DNA from: Pseudomonadota bacterium
GTDB taxonomy: Bacteria; Pseudomonadota; Alphaproteobacteria; Rhodospirillales; Casp-alpha2
Direction: 5' to 3'
NCBI GenBank assembly: GCA_027624235.1
Contig: JAQBYB010000003.1
Coordinates: 1 to 64,000 of the forward strand
DNA length: 64,000 bases
Each line of letters begins with the position of its first letter. Positions within the stretch are counted from its first letter, which is position 1. Shown one piece after another: positions 18,628 to 32,892 of this stretch. The translations under genes and the position numbers were made by a program. Below the pieces are notes generated by a model, which made no database searches, was not told where the DNA came from, and saw only the letters and a program-made list of their open reading frames with translations.

Positions 18628-21336
18628 TTATTTTTGGAAAATATTCGTACGGATTTCACCCAGTGTCTTCAGCGTGACGTTTAGGGTAACTTGATCCGTC
18701 GGCCTTAGGTCCCGGTCTTCAAAGAATGTTCGAGATGCTCTTGTGGTTAAGACGACACATTCATTTTCGTAAATCAACGAGGCGCCATACTGGCGCGCTT
18801 CTCCGGCGGCAATATCCCGTACGCCTGAGAAGCCTGCTCGCCAGAACTTGTTGAGCTGGGAATTCACTGAGAAATTGATTTCTTCGCGGCCTGAAAATTC
18901 ACTGTCCTCCTGCGATTCGAGAAAGACATAACTGGCGTTGGCTTTTAAAGCCGGCACGCCTGCGGAAAGTGTCGCTTCGTTCCGTTTCGGGGTGAAATTA
19001 TCGCTGGCGAAGCGGGTCCGGTAGAGAAGATTTAGATAAGGCCCCGGTGTAATATGGACCCGCCCGACAATGTCAGAAAAATTATCTTCCAGGCCCGATC
19101 TGGAGGGAAAGGTATCATCGGATCTGGGCCGCCAGGATTGGCCGAGGAAGAAGGTCGAACTTCCGCCGCCTTTGCCGTAGGCGCCCCACTTGAGGCCATA
19201 GGAGAGGCGCGGCCCGCCCTCCACCCTGTCGAGACCGGAAAACTTGTTGGCGGCGAATAGGTTGGTGTCATCGAACTCCAACTCGGTGCTGTCTTCGTTG
19301 GGTATCTTGGTCGAGTTGCCGCCGTAGGGACTGTATGTCGCAGCGGCCACCGGTTCGAGGACTTGACTGATATTGCCATCCGTTTTGACAAAGGGAAGCC
19401 GCCAATCGAGCATGACCTGGGGGTGGAGGCGGCCGCTAACGCCGTTAAAGTTAGCTTCTCCATCCCGTTTCAGGTGGTCGACTTGATAGAGATTACCGTT
19501 GAGCGAAAGTGACAGCTTATAGGCATCGCCGAGCGGTCCCATGAAGGGTAATTGCCAACCCGGCTGGACCGATAGCCGGCGGATGTCGGTGCCTTCATGA
19601 CGGGCGATTGCCAAAAAGTTGACGTCCAACACCGTTTGGCCGCCATATTTATCGGGTTTACCCAGGTGGTTGAAGTCGATCAACGGCAGGACGAGGGGCT
19701 CAAGGTCGGCGTCGTCCGTCGACCGCAGGCCCTGGAAGGCATAACCGTTGGCGGAAAAATAATTGCGCCCGCGGAATCCCTCGACAAAAAGCCGACTGTT
19801 GAGAGAGTTCGGGGATCCAAACCCATAGCGTCTCAGGTACGTATCGTCGGTGGCGCGGTTGATGTCGAACCCGCCCCGCCAAGTATTGTCGAAATCAAAC
19901 CGGCCCTCGCTTTTGATATGGGCTCTGAAGTCTTCGTCGTCATCGCCGCCGATGAGGCTCGCGGTGGCGTCAAAAGTGCCGTTGCGGAATCGTTGACGAT
20001 ATTCCCCGATCATCCCTGATCCGCCATCGCCGGTGACGAGCGCCGTGATGGTTGCATCCCGGGTCGGATCGATATTGATGAAATAGGGAACCTGGGTGAC
20101 GGAACCTAAGTCTGAAGACCGGCCGAAGGATGGCACCAGAAGACCGCTTTGGCGTTTAACCGTCGGGTCGGGATGAGACAGGTAGGGCGTATAGGCAACC
20201 GGTACGCCTAAGACCTCAAGCCAGGCATCACGGTATTCGATGGTCTTGGAATTCTTGTTATGAATTATTTTCACCGCCTTAATCTGCCACAGGGGCGGGC
20301 GCGTCGGGTCGTTCTTACACAGGTTGCACGGTGAATAAACGCCTTGGCGCATTTCCGTGACGTTTCCGTCGGATCGTCTGGCGCCGGTGGCGGCGATGCG
20401 GGAGCGATCGGTCAGGATGATCCCCAGACTTTCGATGAGGGCATCCTTGAGATCACCGGAAATCTGCATTTGGTCACCGAATAGCTTCTCGCCTCCCGGC
20501 TCGCTCAATTGAATATTACCGGCCGCCGTCACGACGTCTGATTTCTGGTTATACAGGATGCGGTCGGCGATCAGCTTCCGTTGACCGTGGATGATTTCGA
20601 CGTTGCCGGTGGCGGTCACTAAACCATTTTCCTGATCAAAACTGATGTCATCGGCGCTCAAGTGAACAGGAAGGTCGAGTTCAATCTGCCCGGTGGTCTC
20701 AGTTGGTCCGGCGGGGGTGGGTAGCGTTTCTGAGGCGTCCTTGAGTGAAGAAGGCGGCAGCGGCGGGGCCGCCTTCGGTTCGGCGACGACAGGGGGGACA
20801 ACAGGGGTGACGGGCTGGGCCAGGGCCGGGACCGGAATCGGGACTGCCCCTGGACCAGGAACAGGCGTCGGTCGGGACGGCGCGTTGGCGTTATAGGGGC
20901 CTGGATACCACAACGTCCCCAAAGGTTTTGTGTTCAGCACCGGCGGTAGTGGCTGAGATTGAGGCGGCGCCGGTTGTGGGTCGAGTACGGGTGCCGGCAA
21001 GGGCTGGGTGACGGTGGAATTGGGATTGTACACGCCCGGATACCACAGTGTGCCCAACGGTTTGTCCTGGCGAGAAATGGCCGGGGCCGGCTCCGGAAAT
21101 TTAACGTCCGCCGGGTATATTGCCGGCGGGTTCGCGGTCGGCGAAAGAACCGACTTAGGCGCGCCGATCGGGGTTTGGTAAGGGCCGGGATACCACAGCG
21201 TTCCTAACGGCTTGCTCGGCGTGGCCGCGCTGGCGCCGGGTTGCGTTGCCGCCTCGGCGACGTCGGAAAATCCCCATGCGCAGGTAATGGCCAACAGGAC
21301 CGAAGAGGTTAGGTGATGTCCCAGGCGGCGGCGCAT
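18628..21336 (-). CDS. lptD: LPS-assembly protein LptD with repeat-bearing N-terminal extension
   Basis: Outer-membrane beta-barrel that inserts lipopolysaccharide into the outer leaflet. A signal peptide ends near AEA-A (about residue 30). The OstA/LptA-like domain starts about residue 215 (LSADDISFDQENGLVTATGNVEI), contains a Cys pair (SPCNLCKND), and is followed by the barrel with alternating aromatic strands. It is 902 residues. Between signal peptide and OstA domain lie about 185 Pro/Ala-rich residues carrying three copies of K-P-L-G-T-L-W-Y-P-G-P/V-Y (residues 42, 92, 137). I know no function for this repeat. It is followed by surA and preceded by lptG. Confidence 0.93.
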   Translation of the reverse strand: MRRRLGHHLTSSVLLAITCAWGFSDVAEAATQPGASAATPSKPLGTLWYPGPYQTPIGAPKSVLSPTANPPAIYPADVKFPEPAPAISRQDKPLGTLWYPGVYNPNSTVTQPLPAPVLDPQPAPPQSQPLPPVLNTKPLGTLWYPGPYNANAPSRPTPVPGPGAVPIPVPALAQPVTPVVPPVVAEPKAAPPLPPSSLKDASETLPTPAGPTETTGQIELDLPVHLSADDISFDQENGLVTATGNVEIIHGQRKLIADRILYNQKSDVVTAAGNIQLSEPGGEKLFGDQMQISGDLKDALIESLGIILTDRSRIAATGARRSDGNVTEMRQGVYSPCNLCKNDPTRPPLWQIKAVKIIHNKNSKTIEYRDAWLEVLGVPVAYTPYLSHPDPTVKRQSGLLVPSFGRSSDLGSVTQVPYFINIDPTRDATITALVTGDGGSGMIGEYRQRFRNGTFDATASLIGGDDDEDFRAHIKSEGRFDFDNTWRGGFDINRATDDTYLRRYGFGSPNSLNSRLFVEGFRGRNYFSANGYAFQGLRSTDDADLEPLVLPLIDFNHLGKPDKYGGQTVLDVNFLAIARHEGTDIRRLSVQPGWQLPFMGPLGDAYKLSLSLNGNLYQVDHLKRDGEANFNGVSGRLHPQVMLDWRLPFVKTDGNISQVLEPVAAATYSPYGGNSTKIPNEDSTELEFDDTNLFAANKFSGLDRVEGGPRLSYGLKWGAYGKGGGSSTFFLGQSWRPRSDDTFPSRSGLEDNFSDIVGRVHITPGPYLNLLYRTRFASDNFTPKRNEATLSAGVPALKANASYVFLESQEDSEFSGREEINFSVNSQLNKFWRAGFSGVRDIAAGEARQYGASLIYENECVVLTTRASRTFFEDRDLRPTDQVTLNVTLKTLGEIRTNIFQK

Positions 21337-32164: not shown

Positions 32165-32892
32165 TCCGGCAGCCAGAAGCCGTCCCCTTCCAGCGGCGTT
32201 TCGCTGGGCCTGAGGGTCTGGGCGTCAATAAAGACCTCCTGGTGATAGCCCCAAGATTGCAGAAGCGCCCATGCTTCTTCCAGGCTGTCGCCGGCGCGGG
32301 CCAGTTGTGATCCGACCAGTTCGATCATCATCACCGGCCGGAATCGTTGGATGGTCTCGGCGCCGCCTGACAGGATCCGTAATTCCCAGCCCTCGACATC
32401 CATCTTGATGAAATCCAGGCGTTTCAACCCGACCTCGGTGGCGAAGGCGTCGATGGTGGTCAGCGCCACCTGTTCATGGTGACCGGCGTCATTATTTGTC
32501 CCGTCGCCCATGTGGGCGAGACCATACTTGAAGGTGCCGTACGATTTAATTGGTGTCGTCAAGGTCAGCGTTCCCGGCGCGTCGCCCAACCCCTTCGCAA
32601 CCACATTGATGTTTTTAAAGCGGTTGACCTTGATGGCAAGGTTGAGGATTGAGCGCGAATAGCTGCTTGGTTCAAACGAATAGACGCGGCCGCGTTTGGC
32701 GAGGCGGGCCAGCAATTTTGCATATTGGCCGGAATGGCCGCCGATGTCGAAAATGACGCTTTCATCATCCAGCATCGGCGCGAAGATCGGGTTCATCCAT
32801 GTGTGGTGTTGTTTGAACGCCGCCTTGAAAGCATGGGCGATGTAGGACGCCTTGGCCCGCAACGGCAGATCACCGAAATTAAAGCCGGTCAC
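32161..32892 (-). CDS. FkbM family methyltransferase
   Basis: A 243-residue SAM-dependent O-methyltransferase. VIFDIGGHSGQYAKLLA is the SAM loop, FEPSSYSRSILNLAI the acidic motif, and DFIKMDVEGWELRILSGG the FkbM hallmark. These enzymes often methylate sugars of surface glycans, which would fit the neighbouring ligase. GTG start overlaps the tsaC stop (GTGA). Confidence 0.87.
   Translation of the reverse strand: MTGFNFGDLPLRAKASYIAHAFKAAFKQHHTWMNPIFAPMLDDESVIFDIGGHSGQYAKLLARLAKRGRVYSFEPSSYSRSILNLAIKVNRFKNINVVAKGLGDAPGTLTLTTPIKSYGTFKYGLAHMGDGTNNDAGHHEQVALTTIDAFATEVGLKRLDFIKMDVEGWELRILSGGAETIQRFRPVMMIELVGSQLARAGDSLEEAWALLQSWGYHQEVFIDAQTLRPSETPLEGDGFWLPD

Follow-up and report, generated by a model that had tools for sequence, protein, structure and literature searches.

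Two partners stabilise the mobile beta-taco of LptD in E. coli: the translocon subunit LptY (YedD), which attaches to its external surface, and LptM (YifL, PF13627), which sits at the lateral gate (PMC12644819, PMC10567701). What holds and gates the beta-taco, and how it connects to LptA, is under active study. In Pseudomonas, LptD has an extra N-terminal domain of ~100 residues whose structure and function are described as unknown (PMC6372539). The LptD that we analyse here shares its beta-taco and barrel (PF04453, PF03968) and a fold matching LptDE with its counterparts in E. coli and other proteobacteria, yet differs from them by an N-terminal arm bearing PLGxL motifs, which they lack. Like the Pseudomonas protein it has an extra periplasmic segment ahead of the jellyroll, but going by the descriptions the two can be set apart, the Pseudomonas segment being an insert domain and ours a predicted disordered stretch with repeated motifs. 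No described family covers the arm, which is an addition to a known protein and may represent a case where a subunit function has moved into LptD itself.

The gene lies at positions 18628-21336 on the minus strand of the window - the whole 64,000-nucleotide stretch of alphaproteobacterial DNA that we analysed - as do all LptD features given below. It encodes 902 aa and is recognised by Pfam (PF04453 at 7.6e-66, PF03968 at 2.7e-5), with an LptD_N match at residues 226-267 (20536-20661) marking the start of the beta-taco/jellyroll and an LptD match at residues 470-832 (18841-19929) covering the barrel. The best Foldseek matches of its predicted fold are LptDE structures (8h1s: E 3.2e-38; TM ~0.64-0.70). 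Residues 1-29 (21250-21336) form the signal peptide, with the cleavage site inferred by eye from MRRRLGHHLTSSVLLAITCAWGFSDVAEA preceding ATQ. Two LptF/LptG-family genes lie upstream of lptD, and surA and pdxA downstream. An LptE partner is encoded in the same genome (G000:C152; PF04390, 1.3e-9), so we rejected the idea that the arm substitutes for LptE. Invariant in this LptD are three cysteines, a CxxC in the beta-taco region (residues 337 and 340, mature C308 and C311) and a single barrel Cys (residue 860, mature C831). In E. coli LptD the cysteines of the interdomain disulfides come as two plus two, the barrel pair being adjacent; the disulfide scheme may differ here.

Encoded in the reading frame of LptD, the arm comprises ~190 residues ahead of the first jellyroll strand, of which 50 are proline. 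It contains three near-identical 12-mers, KPLGTLWYPG[P/V]Y: copy 1, KPLGTLWYPGPY, at residues 42-53 (21178-21213); copy 2, KPLGTLWYPGVY, at residues 92-103 (21028-21063); and copy 3, again KPLGTLWYPGPY and the last, at residues 137-148 (20893-20928). The best self-match reached 12/12 positions, while 200 shuffles of the arm gave at most 8/12. A preliminary description had placed three such copies, some 45-50 residues apart, at 20893-21213 in front of the OstA domain; shuffling and coordinates bear this out, with measured spacings of 50 and 45 residues, and the arm itself extends beyond the copies, from about residue 30 to 219 (20680-21249). Between copies, 27-28 of 36 nucleotides are identical and 8-9 differ.

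In a codon alignment of ten LptDs from the window's genus and its closest genus, the motif columns keep 91.9% identity with zero gaps and a pN/pS of 0.084, whereas the linker between motifs falls to 40.1% identity, is 27% gapped and has a pN/pS of 0.654; the LptD core lies between them (69.8%, 0.293). The motif is thus conserved beyond the functional core of LptD while the linker drifts, and the copies are under strong purifying selection that targets the peptide rather than the underlying DNA, much as the preliminary description had proposed from the varied codons (motif 0.084 vs linker 0.65).

The 12-mer itself is a local form of a wider element, its WYPGPY tail being confined to the genus of the window and near relatives. 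In most genera of the family (f1) the element occurs one to five times, as [RKP]-P-L-G-x-L-hydrophobic ([WILF]), in an arm that is similarly Pro-rich, and outside the window's genus and its close relatives it mostly reads RPLGxL[ILF]. Of the motif as previously described the copies and their span stand, but the core that is invariant throughout the family is P-L-G-x-L and not the full 12-mer, and the view that its aromatic-rich character is essential is not supported. The KPLGTLWYPGPY form belongs to genera g1 and g12, and the last copy in genus g3 follows PLGTLLxPG[ST]Y. Among proteins outside g1/g12 with at least three copies, Thr occupies position x in 17/19 last copies vs 7/56 other copies (p ~1.6e-9, a value that ignores relatedness). 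On the strength of this last-copy signature the copies seem to derive from distinct ancestral copies that have been maintained separately, which argues for a multivalent function. Together with the occurrence of copies in relatives across the family, it also supports the earlier view that they are no recent duplication. Copy 3 of the window is presumed to be the orthologue of the PLGTL copy in other genera.

Copy number varies, with one copy in several genomes of genus g7. Two long LptD arms from this genus (L140 and L142, genomes G061 and G065) carry two PLGxL copies and also short stretches of RLFNAP, which resemble motif copies that have decayed. In genus g13, the LptD of G021 (L014) has WYxxPY-type motifs near the g1 form, although its core clusters with g3/g6, which may be due to convergence, to an ancestral form having been retained or to the arm having recombined.

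Could the arm be a neutral, functionless expansion of low complexity? Its linkers evolve fast, are rich in Pro and Ala and heavily gapped, and copies in g7 look degenerate, all of which would fit such drift. It would not readily produce the low pN/pS and high identity of the motif next to those linkers, P-L-G-x-L kept across the family or the copy-specific signature (even if relatedness is uncorrected there). Neutral expansion is already disfavoured by these selection data, and we give it very little credence.

A search profile made from 36 motif instances gave matches that we judged convincing only within LptD in the 48 family genomes; the preliminary description had suggested looking for the motif in other envelope proteins, and none of these yielded a convincing match in the same set. 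Wider searches at E 0.002, a threshold that misses some divergent in-family copies (e.g. G019, G027) and could pass over a weak copy elsewhere, found no match outside the family among 317 genomes of the order and none among 385 genomes of the class except in the window's own genome. When we read the N-termini of 18 outgroup LptDs directly, none contained PLG. At the DNA level, a PLGxLW pattern hit the three LptD copies and three other sites in the window's genome, and its reversed control 18.

In a maximum-likelihood tree built from 51 LptD cores, the 29 arm-bearing sequences fell into one clade (support 99/97), with four armless LptDs from g2, g10 and g14 as its sister (100/100) and the outgroup families outside. 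Since the arm is lacking in the sister clade and in the other families that were sampled, the simplest reading of this tree is that the arm was gained once, within one family. Two findings that would, by the preliminary description, have refuted its proposal did not materialise: the motif is not missing from all relatives, as most family genera carry copies, and no known domain covers the arm by Pfam or NCBIfam, nor does any PDB chain match the motif with significance. The preliminary description knew of no role, and the literature that we searched likewise contained no paper describing this LptD arm.

As for where the motifs might act, we looked for columns fixed in arm-bearing sequences and different elsewhere (cut-off 75% vs 10%). 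Only two of 676 aligned LptD core columns pass, 305 and 287. Gly occupies 305 (codon 20422-20424) in 38/38 arm-bearing sequences (39/39 in the jellyroll alignment) vs 1/28 others, where Arg prevails; at 287 (codon 20476-20478) it is found in 30/38 (30/39 in the jellyroll alignment) vs 2/28 others, mostly Ala. So both changes, from Arg and from Ala, go with gain of the arm. A287 is retained in nine arm-bearing sequences, namely G019 and eight from g7, whose readable arms have only one or two motif copies, which we count in favour of the link. Since the armless G038 also has G305, the R305G switch can occur independently of the arm. From the strands that AlphaFold assigns, the two residues are predicted to be direct cross-strand partners in one beta-taco hairpin and, judging from residue alternation, to form a patch that faces outward. 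Consecutive strands are reported to pair in Lpt jellyrolls. For a random pair of columns, the chance of being cross-strand partners on that assumption is 0.0015, or 0.007 when a two-residue register error is allowed; column cut-offs and cross-strand test alike were picked after viewing the data. The co-switch is also a single evolutionary event on one branch, and its association with the arm could be coincidence.

The same column comparison produced no arm-specific switched columns in LptA or LptC and one weak arm-specific column in SurA, and we dropped all three as partners adapted to the arm. Two beta-taco columns switched and none did in LptA or LptC; LptD itself is, to our minds, the best-supported candidate for the partner. 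The preliminary description, which had envisaged tethered motifs docking to peptidoglycan, LptA/LptC or another envelope partner, is supported as to the kind of mechanism, while its LptA and LptC partners lack a co-switched site. Our favoured reading, to which we assign a probability of roughly 40%, is that LptD's own beta-taco is the docking surface of the motifs, which would steady it or assist in building the Lpt bridge, in a manner reminiscent of LptY. The peptide, the selection on it, its specificity to LptD and the co-switched residues are what the data establish, along with a single origin on the simplest reading; the docking, its cis geometry and an effect on LPS transport are what we infer.

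Mechanistically, the arm may be envisaged as a flexible periplasmic tether with an array of short linear motifs that fold back onto the beta-taco, either near the R305G/A287G patch or at the exposed N-terminal edge strand. There they would hold or cap the mobile beta-taco, lending stability to the translocon and adjusting how LptA docks, a job parallel to that of the separate E. coli lipoprotein LptY together with LptM, and several copies on one tether would raise local concentration and permit exchange during LPS handover. The likeness to LptY is a proposed analogy only, as LptY is a separate lipoprotein with a lipocalin-like fold, unlike our tethered peptide (PMC12644819). A more specific version, in which PLGxL motifs bind the Gly-Gly patch, regulate beta-taco mobility or LptA docking and thereby replace LptY-like lipoproteins in most genera of one family, is tentative and somewhat on the unlikely side. 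The G305/G287 co-switch makes the docking idea testable by one point mutation, and a natural peptide selected for docking here would supply a ready-made ligand to locate the contact surface.

AlphaFold modelled full-length mature LptD with a good LptD fold, yet the arm came out at a mean pLDDT of ~30, without secondary structure, and docking was not seen. When only the N-terminal part was modelled, GTLWY of copy 3 was drawn as a low-confidence strand (mature residues 111-115; block pLDDT ~42), in a truncation that creates an artificial edge and with only three aligned proteins carrying the arm or motif, which gave the prediction little to go on. The first jellyroll strand is longer in this model (195-199) than in the full-length one (196-198), which may reflect pairing of the motif with that strand.

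Such pairing need not be confined to LptD, and the motifs might instead bind jellyroll edges of LptA (or LptC/LptF/LptG) in trans by beta-augmentation, as grappling arms that build or lengthen the Lpt bridge. The arm departs from LptD just before the N-terminal strand, the place where LptA docks. Thanatin, an insect peptide that binds Lpt jellyroll edges, lays its N-terminal strand (I8, I9 and Y10 being key) parallel to the first jellyroll strand of LptA (PMC10208570), and a structurally conserved site is expected in LptD (PMC6372539). Like the arm, thanatin and its analogues have a K-P-aliphatic stretch, although thanatin is an antimicrobial hairpin with a disulfide and as such unlike the arm. 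The thanatin stretch reads KPVPIIY. Its resemblance to RPLGILF, at equal length, is no more than a lead, and the residues differ just where the motif has its invariant L, G and L. With LptA and LptC devoid of arm-specific fixed residues and with relatives (G044, G037) that have a similar LptA but no motif, we regard docking in trans as unlikely.

Short motifs repeated on a disordered tether are typically used for recruitment, and the arm could therefore call in a family-specific partner that is periplasmic or peptidoglycan-bound - a scaffold, SurA or a BAM subunit - to bring LptD to its assembly site or anchor it to the wall. SurA binds aromatic-rich peptides, and surA adjoins lptD. But the aromatic part is mostly confined to one genus and its relatives, SurA shows just the one weak column mentioned above, and we found no candidate partner; recruitment is doubtful to us, if worth bearing in mind.

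A built-in mimic of LptM, finally, would place the motif at the lateral gate and the barrel/LptE interface, where it could imitate LPS and aid disulfide maturation. LptM resembles the arm in that it, too, is a short conserved peptide acting on LptD through an LptD-binding motif (PMC10567701), and differs from it in being lipidated, in having its own gene and in its lateral-gate site. The LptM_cons model (PF13627) finds no match in LptD, and the arm has neither a lipobox nor a Cys, leaving the arm as LptM unsupported. As LptE is present too and the genome has a lipoprotein of its own that weakly matches LptM_cons, we consider such mimicry quite improbable. That small lipoprotein (L073, G000:C62, near 32759-32824; CGVKSSPDFPKDGNYPRQYP...) is encoded between genes that we take by eye to be argH and lysA, and is a candidate for this lineage's LptM. 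LptA (L151, G000:C1:6399-7250) is, at ~285 aa, longer than its E. coli counterpart and has two successive LptD_N matches. Perhaps it serves as a bridge unit of double length, and this long form is found in arm-bearing and armless clades, with similar length in the outgroup families.
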